64,000 nucleotides of DNA from Microcaldota archaeon (lineage in GTDB: Archaea > Micrarchaeota > Micrarchaeia > Micrarchaeales > Micrarchaeaceae): the NCBI GenBank assembly GCA_021799475.1, contig JAJZAJ010000001.1, positions 1 to 64,000 on the forward strand. Reading direction: 5' to 3'. Under the pieces are notes generated by a model. That model was not told the origin of the DNA. It did no database searches and saw only the letters and a program-made list of their open reading frames with translations. The stretch's first letter is position 1. Each line of letters opens with the position of its first letter. A program made the position numbers and the translations under genes. Of the stretch, positions 44,693 to 57,471 are shown piece after piece.

Positions 44693-45559
44693 CTATGGCG
44701 TGTATTGTGAATTCCAGCTGCCGTTGAATATGACATTTGTGACCTGACCATTATGATTGTTTCCGGAGTAATCCTGCGCGTTGCCATTGAGCGGCCACCA
44801 CCCCATTATGTTCTGTATATTTGCAGGGGCACCTCCTATCCCCTCCCTGTAAAGCGCCATGACTTCATTACTGGACAAAGATACATTGTAGAGTTGGACA
44901 TTGGCCATAGAACCGGAAAAGTAATTGCAGCACCCGCTTGCACCTTGCCCTAATATCACAGATGCCGAATAGACATAATTCAGGCTGCCGCTTTCACTGT
45001 TTTGTGCTATCTCCGTTCCATTGATATATGTTTTGATTATGCTGTTGCCTGTGGACGGGTTGTAAGATACGGTTCCAACAAGATTGTACCAATGGCTATC
45101 TGAAGTCGCGAGTGAAATGCAGGAAGTAGCGCTTGAAATTTGGAAGCAGAAACCGGCAGTTCCGATCTCATATGATAATGCACCGTAGCCAGCATGCCCA
45201 TGAGACAGTAAAGATTGCGTTGGCGATGTTGGGATATTACTGAATTCCCATACCGACACTGTGAGGTTATTAGGTCTCAGAGGTCCGTTGCCTGTCCCTT
45301 GATCTTGTATTGTGATTATGCTGTTGCCATTAAACTGCGCAACATACTGAGGCAGCTGCCCCTGGCATTCTCCTTCAAGGGACATCTGGCCTCCCAGACG
45401 CACAATCTGACATGCGCCCGGAGGTGCCTTTGGAGCAAGAGCGCTGCCTGAGAAGACACCCAACTGGAACAGCACTCCCAGAACAACCGCGATGATGAGT
45501 ATCGCCCATCCGTACGTCATCAGGTATTCCATCGCGCTTTGCGCTCTCACTTTCAACAT
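44693..45559 (-). CDS. class III signal-peptide pilin with LamG-like domain (pilin A)
   Basis: The N-terminus RAQSAMEYLMTYGWAIL is a class III (type IV pilin-like) signal, cleaved before Gln, followed by a hydrophobic assembly helix. A Gly/Cys-rich stalk leads to a LamG/concanavalin-like domain with a conserved end block (ALYREGIGGAP, WWPLNGNAQDYSGNN). The first 85 residues are almost the same as in the pilin at 49602, while the LamG module differs. It would be exported, cut by the A24 peptidase and built into a surface filament. Confidence 0.85.
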   Translation of the reverse strand: MLKVRAQSAMEYLMTYGWAILIIAVVLGVLFQLGVFSGSALAPKAPPGACQIVRLGGQMSLEGECQGQLPQYVAQFNGNSIITIQDQGTGNGPLRPNNLTVSVWEFSNIPTSPTQSLLSHGHAGYGALSYEIGTAGFCFQISSATSCISLATSDSHWYNLVGTVSYNPSTGNSIIKTYINGTEIAQNSESGSLNYVYSASVILGQGASGCCNYFSGSMANVQLYNVSLSSNEVMALYREGIGGAPANIQNIMGWWPLNGNAQDYSGNNHNGQVTNVIFNGSWNSQYTP

Positions 45560-50501: not shown

Positions 50502-52103
50502 ATGATAACCATGCAGGGTAGCATAGAAAGCAACAGTATAGAAGAGACAGCATCTGAGCTTGGCGCCAGGACAGCCAATATGGCAGCATCATTGATAGTC
50601 GCAAAGTTTCTTTCGTTCCTAGTTCTCGGAGTATCATTTATCGTAATAGCAAGGCTGCTGCAACCAACCGTTTATGGATATTATACTCTTGCGATTGCAG
50701 TGTCAGGCTTCTTCGGGTCCTTCGCTGACTTCGGAATAGGTATTGCCCTAACCAAGTTCATCTCAGAATACAAAGCAAAAAAGAACACTGGCGCCATAGC
50801 CTCGGTGCTTTCAGACGGCTTCACTGTCTTGGTAATCGGCGGACTGGTGTTCACACTGCTCTCCATCGCATTCAGCTGGTGGACCGCGCAGAACGTAATG
50901 CACAACATATCTTTCGCATATCTTATACAGGTCGCTTCGCTCACCATAGTGCTGAGCATGCTATATGGTTCTTCCACTTCGGCGCTTATAGGTTTCGGAA
51001 AAGGGAAGCTTGTAGCTCTCTCTACCGCTTCATCCATGGTAGTGCAGTCTGTCGCCAGCATAGCCCTGGCAGTCATCGGATTTGGCGCATTCGCACCGGC
51101 TTTCGGCCTGGTTCTTGGATACCTGTTCGGCTTCCTGCTGTCACTCTACCTTATACGCACCGAGATGAGAGTCCTGAAGACACGCATCGTCAAGCCAACA
51201 ACGGATGGAATAAAGAAGCTCCTCCTGTTCTCCACTCCATTGGCATTCGTAAACCTGCTGGGTTCGGTCACTTCGAATTTCGCGACCATATTCCTTGGGT
51301 TGTTTGTAGTATCCGCAGTGATAGGTAACTATGGTCTTGCCTCAAGAGTAGGCGGACTGATAGATGTTGGCATAGGATCAGTAGCAACCGCACTGCTCCC
51401 CGCATTCTCTGTTACGCTTTCCGGAAGCAAGTCGAAGACCGATACCGCTCACTTCTACAATGTCGCACTCCACTCGGCCGTAGTGTTCCTTGCTCCTATG
51501 ATATTCTTCATAGCAGTTATGGCAAAGCCTATAGTATATACAGTATTTGGCGGAACATATACTCTAGCCCCTCTCTACATACAAATAATGTCCCTGGGAC
51601 TCCTTGTAGGCATAGCCGGTGCGTATACCAACATGCTGCTTATAAGCGGCAATCTCGTCAAGTCTGTTCTGAAATATAATATAATAATCTCAGCAATACA
51701 GACAGCGCTGATATTCCTGCTAGTGCCTGTCTTAGGAGGTCTGGGCCTTGCAATAGTCATGCTTTTCGTAACACAACTTCTGAATACGCTGATATTTGTA
51801 AGAAAGGCGGTAAAGGCCTTCAATGTAAAACTCTGGACAGGCAAGATATTCAGAGCTACGGTAGCCAACATCGCCGCAGTATCTATTATTTATCCGTTAC
51901 GGCTTGCGTTGGGCGGAAACTACGTATTCCTTCTCGCGATATCCGCTATTCTCTATGTCTTAATATACCCGATAATCCTTGGAATCTTGAAAGGGATATC
52001 GCACGAGGATCTGGAACGGCTTGTCAGGATCACAGGAAAAATGCCCCTTTTCAACAGGATCGTTCCTCTGGCATCGCAATATACCGGGATCTTTATACGC
52101 TAA
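50502..52103 (+). CDS. Wzx-like polysaccharide flippase (MVF/MATE-fold)
   Basis: The 533-residue membrane protein has about 14 hydrophobic segments and the N-terminal pattern of oligosaccharide flippases (AKFLSFLVLGVSFIVIARLL, GYYTLAIAVSGFF). It would flip lipid-linked sugars across the membrane for surface glycosylation. It lies between pilins B and C and probably provides glycans for them. The substrate is unknown. Confidence 0.88.
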   Translation: MITMQGSIESNSIEETASELGARTANMAASLIVAKFLSFLVLGVSFIVIARLLQPTVYGYYTLAIAVSGFFGSFADFGIGIALTKFISEYKAKKNTGAIASVLSDGFTVLVIGGLVFTLLSIAFSWWTAQNVMHNISFAYLIQVASLTIVLSMLYGSSTSALIGFGKGKLVALSTASSMVVQSVASIALAVIGFGAFAPAFGLVLGYLFGFLLSLYLIRTEMRVLKTRIVKPTTDGIKKLLLFSTPLAFVNLLGSVTSNFATIFLGLFVVSAVIGNYGLASRVGGLIDVGIGSVATALLPAFSVTLSGSKSKTDTAHFYNVALHSAVVFLAPMIFFIAVMAKPIVYTVFGGTYTLAPLYIQIMSLGLLVGIAGAYTNMLLISGNLVKSVLKYNIIISAIQTALIFLLVPVLGGLGLAIVMLFVTQLLNTLIFVRKAVKAFNVKLWTGKIFRATVANIAAVSIIYPLRLALGGNYVFLLAISAILYVLIYPIILGILKGISHEDLERLVRITGKMPLFNRIVPLASQYTGIFIR

Positions 52104-52261
52104 ACCAATAGCATTCGTATCTTCCTTTCTGCAAACATGCATGGCACCTTAGCCATCTATCGAACGGGCATACCTGGATTTTCTCTTTTTGCAGATGCAT
52201 CGAAATGCCCATAGCTTTATTATTGTATTTTGTTATCTAATCTGTGAGATTCGGTGCTACA

Positions 52262-53119
52262 ATGAAAATGAAAAGATCGCAGTCCGCAATGGAATACCTA
52301 ATGACTTACGGGTGGGCGATACTTATCCTTGTTGTTGCCCTGAGCGCATTCTTGATGCTCGGTGTCTTCAACTACGGGTCTTTCACACAGAAAGCTCTTC
52401 CGGGCACATGTTCAATATTCCGGCCTCATGGACCAGGCACTTCCTCGCTCATACAAACGCAAGGAGTATGCACGGGACTGCAGCCGCAGTACGTCGCATA
52501 CCTGAACGGGAGCCAATACCTAAACCTTCCGGTAACGCCGGCCTATTCTACGCTGACTCTTTCGGCATGGGCAAACCTGAACAGTTCTGACCTCGCCAAT
52601 AGGCAGGATATCCTGAATACCGCGGGGGACTTCCTGAATACGCAGGGAGGCAGGCTCTGTTTTTGGGTTTCGGGTGTAAACAGCGCGTATGTATGCAGCC
52701 CTGCCGGAATTTCGTCAGGAAAATGGTACATGCTGACTGCGACATACAACGGAATAGCAGAGGGCATATATGTCAACGGGACTCTTGTCTATTCTTATTA
52801 CCTCAGCGGCACTCCGACCGGTGCGGTAGAATCTGGTAACATAGGGGCATGCTACCATTATTGCGGCGGAATCGGATATGTTGACGGATATATCGCAAAC
52901 GTCCAGTATTATAAGACAGCGCTCTCGTCAAATGAGATAAAATCCATGTATATAGACGGGATAGGCGGAGACCCGATATCTCTGCAGAACATTGTCGCAT
53001 GGTGGCCTCTAAACGACAACGGCAACGACTATTCCGGAAACAACTACAACGCAACGGAAGTCGCTGCGAACGCGGTGCAGTACACTACAAACTGGCAAAG
53101 CGGATATTCCCAGACATAG
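52262..53119 (+). CDS. class III signal-peptide pilin with LamG-like domain (pilin C)
   Basis: The protein begins KMKRSQSAMEYLMTYGWAIL, followed by a helix and a short stalk. Its C-terminal 217 residues (LamG-like) are identical to those of pilin D except for the last residue. The final block has MYIDGIGGDP and WWPLNDNGNDYSGNN. ATG 52262 is chosen over GTG 52244. The gene lies in tandem with pilin D and the ATPase. Confidence 0.85.
   Translation: MKMKRSQSAMEYLMTYGWAILILVVALSAFLMLGVFNYGSFTQKALPGTCSIFRPHGPGTSSLIQTQGVCTGLQPQYVAYLNGSQYLNLPVTPAYSTLTLSAWANLNSSDLANRQDILNTAGDFLNTQGGRLCFWVSGVNSAYVCSPAGISSGKWYMLTATYNGIAEGIYVNGTLVYSYYLSGTPTGAVESGNIGACYHYCGGIGYVDGYIANVQYYKTALSSNEIKSMYIDGIGGDPISLQNIVAWWPLNDNGNDYSGNNYNATEVAANAVQYTTNWQSGYSQT
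52463..53113 (+). repeat. 651-bp LamG cassette, copy 1
   Basis: This segment equals 53391-54041 at an offset of 928 bases, with a single internal difference that I can see (G53074 against A54002). It starts abruptly in GGAGTATGCACGGG and ends within four codons of the stop. The sequence before it differs strongly between the two genes. Confidence 0.93.
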
Positions 53120-53156
53120 CCGAAGAGTTTAAATCATTTGTTTGTGCTTATCATCC

Positions 53157-54047
53157 ATGCAGGGATCGGGTGATATTTTAAGAAACAGGTACAGGACTAG
53201 AAGAGCGCAAAGCGCAATGGAGTATCTGATGACCTATGGGTGGGCGATACTTCTTATAACCGTGGTCCTGATAGCCCTGTTTGAGACAGGAGTATTCAAC
53301 TATAATAACCTAGTGCAAAAATCGCTGCCCGGAAGCTGTTGGGTGTATAGGCCAAATGGGCCTGGGAGCGTAATAGATATATCGATATCTGGAGTATGCA
53401 CGGGACTGCAGCCGCAGTACGTCGCATACCTGAACGGGAGCCAATACCTAAACCTTCCGGTAACGCCGGCCTATTCTACGCTGACTCTTTCGGCATGGGC
53501 AAACCTGAACAGTTCTGACCTCGCCAATAGGCAGGATATCCTGAATACCGCGGGGGACTTCCTGAATACGCAGGGAGGCAGGCTCTGTTTTTGGGTTTCG
53601 GGTGTAAACAGCGCGTATGTATGCAGCCCTGCCGGAATTTCGTCAGGAAAATGGTACATGCTGACTGCGACATACAACGGAATAGCAGAGGGCATATATG
53701 TCAACGGGACTCTTGTCTATTCTTATTACCTCAGCGGCACTCCGACCGGTGCGGTAGAATCTGGTAACATAGGGGCATGCTACCATTATTGCGGCGGAAT
53801 CGGATATGTTGACGGATATATCGCAAACGTCCAGTATTATAAGACAGCGCTCTCGTCAAATGAGATAAAATCCATGTATATAGACGGGATAGGCGGAGAC
53901 CCGATATCTCTGCAGAACATTGTCGCATGGTGGCCTCTAAACGACAACGGCAACGACTATTCCGGAAACAACTACAACGCAACGGAAGTCGCTGCGAACG
54001 CAGTGCAGTACACTACAAACTGGCAAAGCGGATATTCCCAGCCGTAG
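53157..54047 (+). CDS. class III signal-peptide pilin with LamG-like domain (pilin D)
   Basis: The protein has a longer basic leader (RNRYRTRRAQSAMEYL) and its own assembly helix (ILLITVVLIALFETGVFNY), distinct from pilin C. The LamG-like C-terminus is the same as in C. A TATA box (GTTTAAATC, 53127-53135) before ATG 53157 gives it its own leaderless promoter. The ATPase gene follows 60 bases later. Confidence 0.85.
   Translation: MQGSGDILRNRYRTRRAQSAMEYLMTYGWAILLITVVLIALFETGVFNYNNLVQKSLPGSCWVYRPNGPGSVIDISISGVCTGLQPQYVAYLNGSQYLNLPVTPAYSTLTLSAWANLNSSDLANRQDILNTAGDFLNTQGGRLCFWVSGVNSAYVCSPAGISSGKWYMLTATYNGIAEGIYVNGTLVYSYYLSGTPTGAVESGNIGACYHYCGGIGYVDGYIANVQYYKTALSSNEIKSMYIDGIGGDPISLQNIVAWWPLNDNGNDYSGNNYNATEVAANAVQYTTNWQSGYSQP
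53391..54041 (+). repeat. 651-bp LamG cassette, copy 2
   Basis: Second copy of the segment at 52463-53113. Near-perfect identity over this length beside divergent flanks points to recent gene conversion or duplication of the cassette alone, rather than to functional constraint on synonymous sites. Confidence 0.93.
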
Positions 54048-54107
54048 ATACGGCAAGCGTAGCGCCATGGTTTATAGCTTTTCCTTACATATCCTTGTGT
54101 GACAATC

Positions 54108-55424
54108 ATGGACGAAAGAATGCGTGCCATAGAGAACAGCGTACTCAAACAGCTTGAGGGCTCTTTCGTAAACATTACCGATGAAGTGAAGCGCAGGAGC
54201 ATGATTACATATGCTGCCAAGACCATCGCACCAAGCATAAGCGGGGAAGAGATAAACGCACTTATCAAAGATATCAATGAACTCGGTGGCATTGCACGAT
54301 ATATTTCCGACCAGAATGTCGAGGACGTAATGATCAACAATACTGCGAGCACTTTCATATTCGACTCTGACGGCACATCAAAACAGGTTGATGTAAAGTA
54401 TGAGACAAAAGAGGATCTCGAGCTGCTTGTCGGAAAGCTGAAGCTCTACGCTACGAACAAATCCGCTAACGGGAATATAATGGACGTGCATCTTCCAACC
54501 GGTAGCAGGGCCAACATAGTGACATCGCCTCTGGGCCCTGACGTCACGATAAGGAATTTCAGGAGCAAGCCCCTGAGCATAATAGATTTGATAAACTCCG
54601 GTGAGCTTGATTACCATATGGCTGCAAGGCTGTGGCTTTATGTGGATGGATTCAGGATAAGGCCGGCGAACATGCTTATAGGAGGGGTTCCGGCAGCAGG
54701 GAAAACTACGCTGCTCAATGCAATGTTCTCTTTCTTCAGGCCGGAGCAGAGAGTCATTACAATAGAGGACACGTATGAACTAAATACGGAGCACCAGGAG
54801 AATGTAGCAAAACTAGAGACGAGCGGAGACCTAACACTGCAGGACCTGGTAAAAAACGCGCTAAGGATGAGACCCGACTTGATAGTGATAGGAGAAGTAA
54901 GAGGCAGCGAGGCCAATGATCTGATAGCGGCAATGAATGTGGGTAAGATCTGCATGGGAACGATACATGCTTCTTCGACGAGAGATATAGTAAACAGGCT
55001 CGAACATTCACCAATGAACGTACCGCAGGATATAATACCTGTGATAGATGCGCTGCTGGTGATGGCTCCGGTGTTCCAGAACGGCGTGATGTCGAGGAAG
55101 ATAGTGCAGATGTCCGAGATATCAGGCATAGAGACGCAGATACTGCTGTCAGATCTTTACAGATATGACTACAAGACGCACCAGGCTGCGCCGATACTAC
55201 CAAGCGTAACCTACCGTGACCTGCTTTCAAAGATCCTCGGGGTTGTTCCATCAGATATACTGGCGGAAGAAGCAGTAAGGGCAAGAATCCTAGAGCAGAT
55301 GAACAGGCTGGGGAAGAGGAGCACACCTGATATCAGCGAAGTAGTCAAGGAGTACTATTATACTCCAGAAGCGCTGCTCAAGAAGATAGGGCTCGGAAAC
55401 GTAAGCCCGATAATAAGAGTATGA
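54108..55424 (+). CDS. type IV pilus / archaellum-type assembly ATPase (PilT/VirB11 family)
   Basis: The 438-residue secretion ATPase has Walker A (GGVPAAGKTT, residues 192-201), the Asp box (VITIEDTYELN), Walker B (LIVIGEVRGSEA) and His box (GTIHASSTRD). It powers insertion of pilin subunits. The start is ATG 54108 or GTG 54099, and a TATA (TTTATAGC) lies about 35 bases upstream. The polytopic platform protein (TadC/FlaJ type) that such ATPases need is not found in the window. Confidence 0.9.
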   Translation: MDERMRAIENSVLKQLEGSFVNITDEVKRRSMITYAAKTIAPSISGEEINALIKDINELGGIARYISDQNVEDVMINNTASTFIFDSDGTSKQVDVKYETKEDLELLVGKLKLYATNKSANGNIMDVHLPTGSRANIVTSPLGPDVTIRNFRSKPLSIIDLINSGELDYHMAARLWLYVDGFRIRPANMLIGGVPAAGKTTLLNAMFSFFRPEQRVITIEDTYELNTEHQENVAKLETSGDLTLQDLVKNALRMRPDLIVIGEVRGSEANDLIAAMNVGKICMGTIHASSTRDIVNRLEHSPMNVPQDIIPVIDALLVMAPVFQNGVMSRKIVQMSEISGIETQILLSDLYRYDYKTHQAAPILPSVTYRDLLSKILGVVPSDILAEEAVRARILEQMNRLGKRSTPDISEVVKEYYYTPEALLKKIGLGNVSPIIRV

Positions 55425-56925: not shown

Positions 56926-57471
56926 ATGTTCGGAAATTTGAAGAAAATGAGAGCGCAAAGCGCAATGGAATACCTCATGACCTACGGATGGGCTATTTTG
57001 ATCATAGCGGTGGTCTTGGGTGTGTTGTTCTCCCTGGGAATCTTTTCAGGGAACAACCTGCTTGGCACTGCCTGTATAGCATATCAGGGATACTACTGTG
57101 CCAACCCGATATTGGGCTCGGGAGGAACGCTGACGGTAACATTGGGACAGAACTTCGGCACCAATTACGGAAGTTCTTCTGATCCAGTTATATTCAGCTG
57201 CGGCAACCAGACGAGCACGCCAAACAATGCAGGATTCATGTCCTCTGGAACTGACAATGTAATACCTGGAGGTGAGCTGGCTTCAGGCCAGACTATGTCT
57301 ATCGACATGATATGCGCAGGGACGGGAGCGCTTGGAACGGTATCCGCGCTAGGAGCATCAGGTTCAATACCGATAGGCAGCGCCTTTACGGGAGCCATAT
57401 GGATTAACTACCAGACAGGCGGCGCGAATGTAGTCGGAAAAGTCGCTTCGGTTTCAGTAAAGGTATCCTAA
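56926..57471 (+). CDS. class III signal-peptide pilin, short form (pilin E)
   Basis: The 181-residue protein has the leader KKMRAQSAMEYLMTYGWAIL and an assembly helix close to pilin A and B. It carries a small Gly/Ser/Thr-rich beta domain instead of a LamG module. It resembles a classical major pilin in size. A TATA box (GTTTAAATAC, about 56879) and GGTGTAACC before the ATG suggest good expression, and a long T-rich terminator follows. Confidence 0.85.
   Translation: MFGNLKKMRAQSAMEYLMTYGWAILIIAVVLGVLFSLGIFSGNNLLGTACIAYQGYYCANPILGSGGTLTVTLGQNFGTNYGSSSDPVIFSCGNQTSTPNNAGFMSSGTDNVIPGGELASGQTMSIDMICAGTGALGTVSALGASGSIPIGSAFTGAIWINYQTGGANVVGKVASVSVKVS

Follow-up and report, generated by a model that had tools for sequence, protein, structure and literature searches.

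The window analyzed here is the 64,000-nucleotide stretch that forms bases 1-64000 of contig C3 in a Micrarchaeota genome (G000) of 814 kb, which is assembled in three contigs and 95.3% complete. It holds a tandem pair of LamG pilin genes, hereafter copy 1 and copy 2, located between a polysaccharide flippase gene and the gene of a pilus-type ATPase (Table 1). The ATG start listed for each copy is our choice, and the reading frames have alternative openings at GTG 52244 (copy 1) and TTG 53142 (copy 2). The ATPase gene starts 51 bp past copy 2, where its frame opens with GTG (an ATG follows at 54108), and its NCBIfam matches are FlaI/TadA-like and under the cut-offs of those models. A TTTAAA element is present at 53128, 29 bp ahead of the copy 2 ATG. 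A strict scan for TATA-like elements was positive for five of the 21 LamG pilins of the genome, copy 2 included and copy 1 not; the DNA upstream of copy 1 appears T-rich by eye.

Table 1. Features of the tandem pilin locus and of related genes in the window
Feature	Position	Strand	Evidence
Copy 1, type IV pilin gene with LamG domain (ConA-like lectin fold)	52262..53119	+	PF13385, 60.9 bits; open reading frame
Copy 2, LamG type IV pilin gene	53157..54047	+	PF13385, 61.0 bits; open reading frame
N-terminal module of copy 1: SQSAMEYL processing-site region, assembly helix, stalk linker	52277..52462	+	
Copy 2 N-terminal module (AQSAMEYL), dissimilar to that of copy 1 and to the others compared	53205..53390	+	
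Shared block in copy 1: complete LamG/pentraxin-like domain, almost to the stop codon	52463..53113	+	
Shared block in copy 2	53391..54041	+	
Third LamG pilin, with the usual N-terminal module of the genome	49602..50498	+	PF13385, 40.5 bits
Fourth LamG pilin of the window, N-terminal module near the usual type	44693..45559	-	
Pilin with the same N-terminal motif and without a LamG match	56926..57471	+	Open reading frame, motif, profile search
Type II/IV secretion ATPase of the pilus system	54099..55424	+	PF00437, 113.4 bits
Polysaccharide flippase, neighbor outside the cassette	50502..52103	+	PF01943, 101 bits

Two pilins with different stems and nearly the same head

Archaeal type IV pilins are recognized by a short basic leader, a Q at position +1 and an E at position +5 of the processing site, and a hydrophobic helix. 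Both genes carry this motif (KRSQSAMEYL in copy 1, RRAQSAMEYL in copy 2), and in each the short basic leader and the SQSAMEYL or AQSAMEYL sequence precede a hydrophobic helix, a linker containing a pair of conserved cysteines and, last, a LamG domain. Both frames are open and score over the PF13385 cut-off of 27.6 bits. The N-terminus of the pair matched no Pfam family, and the single NCBIfam match of the pair was far under its cut-off and lay away from the N-terminus. An AlphaFold2 model of copy 2 built from 57 sequences (pLDDT 88.1), which replaced an earlier model from four sequences (pLDDT 43.6), places the helix at residues 10-49, and structural matches to LamG/pentraxin-type domains cover residues 89-301, with 4dqa as the top match (Z 23.5, rmsd 2.5, 197 residues aligned). 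The remaining pilus machinery of the genome consists of the T2SSE gene beside copy 2, a T2SSF gene (platform protein) at C1:276111-277308 and a Peptidase_A24 gene (prepilin peptidase) at C3:23878-24225. By motif, profile and predicted fold, the pair most likely encodes tandem modular type IV pilins beside a pilus ATPase, in each of which an assembly helix and stalk are followed by a LamG/pentraxin-like head.

The initial annotation described a near-identical 651-bp LamG cassette in tandem, with a single difference, an abrupt boundary and dissimilar N-termini, and our comparison bears out each of these observations. At an offset of 928 bp, 52463-53113 and 53391-54041 differ only at 53074/54002, where the change is synonymous, and the resulting exact runs of 611 and 39 bp are the only exact direct repeats of at least 24 bp within the window. 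The match continues to the stop codon (53119/54047) with two further differences, at 53114 and 53116, both in the last sense codon. The pair agrees in 217 of the 219 codons of the block, stop included; the synonymous change occupies one of the other two, and a T-to-P replacement the last sense codon. To the left of 52463 the identity drops to 53% over 52244-52462, or to 56% over the 186-bp N-terminal modules, and to the right of the block only 22 of 100 bases match. The left breakpoint coincides with the GVC of the linker (residues 84-86). Since the structural matches begin at residue 89 and run to 301, the repeated unit is the whole LamG domain and its left edge a domain border, a correction to the earlier description. 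Partial alignments of the block, 69-82% identical, occur at 11 further places in the genome. No match to the opening 29 bases of the cassette came from a genome collection that may leave out this genome or very near ones.

Uniform ends and distinct heads across the pilin family

A search of the own genome with copy 1 returned 36 matches, and a script run over the fetched loci identified the pilin motif in 22 genes, of which 21 fall within the length range of LamG pilins; because one 409-aa pilin-type frame escaped the motif, the number of LamG pilins is at least 21. Most of these pilins share a usual, nearly invariant N-terminal module, SQSAMEYLMTYGWAILIIAVVLGVLFQLGVFSGSALTPKAAPGACQVVRLGGQ.SLEGECQGQLPQYV, behind which the paralogous heads have a median amino-acid identity of about 40%. 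For the 17 genes with this usual module, the median DNA identity is 83% in the N-module versus 50% in the remainder, and pilins of the genome have DNA runs of about 200-330 bp in common at 85-97%, several of which extend upstream of the gene. Four-fold sites agree at 57% in the N-modules versus 38% in the remainder, which indicates that the N-modules have been homogenized, though not freshly. Silent differences in the N-modules of the 17 genes are clustered, as the sum of squared run lengths was larger than in any of 500 permutations; the longest-run statistic was unremarkable (253 of 500 permutations). The pair reverses this pattern. Its N-modules are outliers, with a best DNA identity of 61% among the own-genome genes compared and 63% among 116 family genes, and the pair provides the sole near-identical LamG core among 231 own-genome pairs. 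The reverse arrangement was observed on contig C3, where the genes at 335238 and 349160, and likewise those at 262764 and 267609, have nearly the same upstream DNA and N-module and carry different heads.

Each of the 27 LamG matches in the genome falls within an open frame: 19 in motif-bearing pilin genes, one in the 409-aa frame, which also matches the pilin N end, and seven in large frames. These seven are found together in three large open frames (907, 751 and 1115 aa) at C1:264.9-275 kb (loci L051-L059), which adjoin LamG pilin genes. No silent LamG cassette was found in the own genome, of which 95% is represented, so that a few may be missed.

The genome also carries a single diversity-generating retroelement, located outside the window at G000:C1:51056-54493 (locus L206). 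Its 102-bp template (933-1034) differs from the variable repeat (427-528, within a 217-aa ORF) at 17 positions, all 17 of which are among the 27 adenines of the template; the chance of differences falling only on adenines is about 1e-12. The 217-aa target ORF matched no Pfam or NCBIfam family. The reverse transcriptase (L206:1041-2175) is split into two frames that meet near 1470 at a run of 11 G, a break that may stem from miscalled bases or from a slippery tract that switches the enzyme on and off.

To place the pair among its relatives, 125 pilin genes were collected by motif from some of the matches listed in 14 genomes, the own genome included; 116 of these, from 12 genomes, were kept by length (230-400 aa), and 114, from genomes with at least three genes, were used in an orthologue test. 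In the gene-rich relatives only part of the candidate pilins were scored, so gene counts there are lower bounds. In the ten genomes with pairs, median DNA identities ranged from 0.71 to 0.89 for the N-module, from 0.45 to 0.50 for the LamG core and from 0.69 to 0.90 for the C-tail, in which the last strands of the predicted LamG domain fall. LamG cores at least 95% alike were present in nine of 822 within-genome pairs, namely the window pair and eight pairs within about 21 kb of G021, a relative assembled as a single 952-kb contig. Eight of 743 pairs had one module at 95% or more while another was at 85% or less. A separate survey of 62 pilin genes in 30 assemblies (16 with two or more genes, some overlapping the genomes above) detected no near-identical LamG core and three pairs with common N parts.

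Module trees of the 116 genes placed the nearest neighbor within the same genome for 105 N-modules, 103 tails and 55 LamG cores, compared with about 13 for shuffled labels; when neighbors within 5 kb were left out, the counts were 100, 99 and 45. The LamG cores therefore show some genome specificity beyond chance as well, although far less than the ends. The LamG alignment is noisy (777 columns), which makes the LamG trees weak, and fast LamG evolution alone could blur such a tree. We therefore turned to orthologue-like LamG pairs defined by BLAST scores, which had to be reciprocal, to score at least 1.3 times any own-genome core and to reach at least 90 bits. Among the 20 pairs obtained, in which three genes appear in two pairs each, the N end was nearer to own-genome paralogues in all 20 (mean 0.85 versus 0.68) and the C end in 18 (0.77 versus 0.66). 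LamG identity was about 56-86% in seven of the pairs and 34-49% in the other 13. The seven closest pairs showed a paralogue-like N end in every case, one of them almost tied, and a paralogue-like C end in five; the C-end exceptions are two pairs between G021 and G067, in which the N ends are close (0.94 versus 0.94 and 0.84 versus 0.88) and the C ends go the opposite way. LamG and ATPase identities between genomes are 79 and 70% for G003-G012, 72 and 68% for G012-G013, 57 and 65% for G000-G012 and 59 and 64% for G000-G013, where G013 is of the same genus as the own genome. Because LamG identity is comparable with ATPase identity in these comparisons, the heads concerned behave as ordinary orthologues. 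Of the 114 genes, 81 had their best LamG-core match outside their own genome, a weakly informative count since most of the genes compared belong to other genomes. Together, these comparisons suggest that the ends of the pilins evolve in concert within each genome around older, distinct heads.

Clustering of silent differences in the N-modules was clear in G000, G016, G021, G028 and G075, weaker in G012 (10 of 300 permutations) and G093, and undetected in G003 (92 of 300) and G013 (116 of 300); in the tails, G016 (258 of 300) and G013 (57 of 300) gave no clustering. The N-module tree groups the two modules of the window pair with a support of 0.88 at a distance of 0.77 substitutions per site, a grouping that may reflect long-branch attraction, and the nearest single N-module to either copy comes from G091. 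The pair is the opposite of the family trend, with outlier N ends and the same heads, in a comparison based on one strain of the species.

Several pilins of G021 are mosaics. Between the genes at 583637 and 585611 there are 11 base differences, none of them beyond nt 171, and the other 684 nt are the same. Those at 592467 and 593398 are identical through nt 746 and then accumulate 40 differences in the tail, while the last 182 nt of 591533 and 592467 are identical behind different heads. The gene at 603606 equals 602669 except at 12 places, nine of which fall in an exact 80-bp tail stretch that it has in common with 593398, about 10 kb away. These mosaics look like recombination products, and their apparent borders lie near the junction of stalk and head and near the beginning of the tail, close to the border of the window pair. 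In the same region (G021:C1:583.6-591.5 kb; L114:5592-13487), four tandem units of 1974 bp each consist of a LamG pilin and a Polbeta/HepT-like nucleotidyltransferase pair of toxin-antitoxin type; units 2-4 are identical, and unit 1 departs from them at 16 bases, all at the start of the unit, in the upstream DNA and the pilin N-module. With matches at E up to 1e-100, the pilus ATPase is present in 38 of 41 genomes, the own genome among them, and at 29 ATPase loci of relatives taken with 1.5-kb flanks, a LamG pilin above 200 bits adjoins in two, G012 and G006. Synteny at the ATPase is therefore too poor for the state before the event to be read from relatives.

Origin of the shared head

The initial annotation proposed recent gene conversion or cassette duplication, and this proposal gains support from the sameness of the synonymous sites, the sharp break at the domain border and the resemblance to mosaics in the independent genome G021. 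We consider gene conversion of the lectin-type head between tandem modular pilins to be the probable explanation. The pair would be old tandem duplicates whose heads were still alike enough to recombine, and the DNA of one head would recently have been copied onto that of its neighbor by homologous recombination. The conversion tract would start at the stalk/head border and end within the last codons, replacing head and tail, with the outcome of a single lectin-type head on two different stems. The N-modules of the pair are too diverged to pair with each other, so recombination probably relied on heads that were alike beforehand, unless it took another route. Proline is the final residue in 104 of the 116 family genes, as it is in copy 2, whereas copy 1 has threonine there and may thus be the recipient; we infer that copy 2 was the donor, with the direction uncertain. 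Elsewhere in the family, recombination between paralogues may keep the parts that face the assembly machinery alike, while selection or a lack of homology would keep the heads apart.

A different sequence of events, in which a recent tandem duplication of the whole gene was followed by replacement of the N-terminal part in one copy with that of another pilin, would yield a similar pair. Exchange of this kind has parallels: N-modules and upstream DNA are common to genes with different heads (262764/267609 and 335238/349160), and 583637 and 585611 in G021 have an identical head with only the N part differing. Neither N-module of the pair has a close donor, however, given the best identities of 61 and 63% noted above among the genes compared; the DNA past the two genes is also unshared. 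We regard this course of events as unlikely. It is less likely still that one true cassette was placed twice during assembly or polishing. The genome is known from its three-contig assembly only and 651 bp is longer than a short read, but the two cassettes have unique and different flanks, both genes are open, and differences exist at 53074 and in the last codon. The similar pattern in G021 suggests that such pairs occur, though it also comes from an assembly only.

Three further mechanisms that might maintain or generate the LamG sequences have small probabilities. Programmed antigenic or phase variation, which would move LamG cassettes into an expression site, could account for the constant-variable-constant layout and for mosaics with junctions near the same module borders. 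Against it, every own-genome LamG match lies in an open frame and other genomes contain orthologue-like partners of some LamG cores; programmed variation of the heads is thus unsupported, and we consider it quite improbable. The suggestion in the initial annotation that such a mechanism could vary or homogenize an adhesin is borne out in part: the family recombines by module, but the uniform parts are mainly the gene ends, silent cassettes were not found and the retroelement template is unmatched at the pilin loci. Purifying selection on a functional fold would be compatible with two intact heads, but it would not keep synonymous sites the same, as the initial annotation argued and as the codon counts uphold (217 of 219 identical, with one synonymous change), and other own-genome paralogue heads have a median amino-acid identity near 40%. 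Strong purifying selection was accordingly rejected and is assigned a negligible probability. An equally negligible one is assigned to a diversity-generating retroelement acting on LamG. Although the genome carries one such element (C1:51.1-54.5 kb), its template is unrelated to LamG and matched neither the window nor any of 38 own-genome loci, pilin loci included, and the differences within the pair are not adenine-directed; this candidate was rejected as well.

Extending gene conversion in the pair to the family as a whole, we offer a more tentative proposal, which we hold to be possible rather than probable. Micrarchaeota may keep a combinatorial repertoire of lectin pilins in which the ends are homogenized per genome and the LamG heads stay distinct for long periods and are occasionally copied from stem to stem, thereby changing the lectin carried by each pilus subunit and the partner cell that is gripped. 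If true, uniform ends around old, different heads that are occasionally copied whole would constitute a specific origin of binding diversity that is open to experiment. A further caution is that stem, head and tail of these pilins need to be analyzed one by one, as gene trees and copy counts are otherwise misleading.

Relation to known systems

The pilE/pilS system of Neisseria is a pilin family with a conserved N-terminus and a variable C-terminal part, in which gene conversion draws upon silent partial cassettes without a start of their own. In contrast, no silent cassettes were found here, and the heads are whole domains in complete genes. Concerted evolution in multigene families renders the paralogues of one genome more alike than their orthologues. 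Unlike ordinary concerted evolution, the process in these pilins appears strongest at the two ends and largely spares the middle domain, with pairs like that of the window as exceptions. Among the open-license papers listed in literature searches, none reports that ends are homogenized around older heads or that heads are copied from one such pilin to another.

The means by which ultra-small archaea recognize and attach to their hosts have yet to be explained, and LamG proteins are proposed participants according to the relevant passages of the report on the ARMAN-2-related archaeon Mia14 (PMC5498576). Those passages describe a LamG expansion, with many LamG jelly-roll proteins of which some are linked to type IV pili loci, and propose a role in host contact; the likeness to the present family is evident, and the description there is without homogenized ends or head copying (PMC5498576). 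LamG proteins are likewise named as possible adhesins in the part of the Undinarchaeota report that treats them (PMC7414124), and a survey of archaeal type IV pili mentions paralogous pilins, its text yielding no LamG when searched (PMC4858521). A close parallel is bacterial. PilC of Streptococcus sanguinis is described, in the sections of the report concerned with it, as a modular pilin in which a ConA-like lectin module, shown to bind glycans, is grafted onto a type IV pilin N-terminus (PMC9934059). From the predicted fold and from this example, we infer that the LamG heads would bind glycans on a partner cell. The pilins described here differ from PilC, as portrayed in those sections, in that they are archaeal, about 290 aa long and present as at least 21 paralogues in one genome, with apparent head copying between tandem genes, and their glycan binding is putative. 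LamG expansions, some of them linked to pili loci, were thus known already, and what appears to be new, judged by the papers listed, is the module pattern with head copying.
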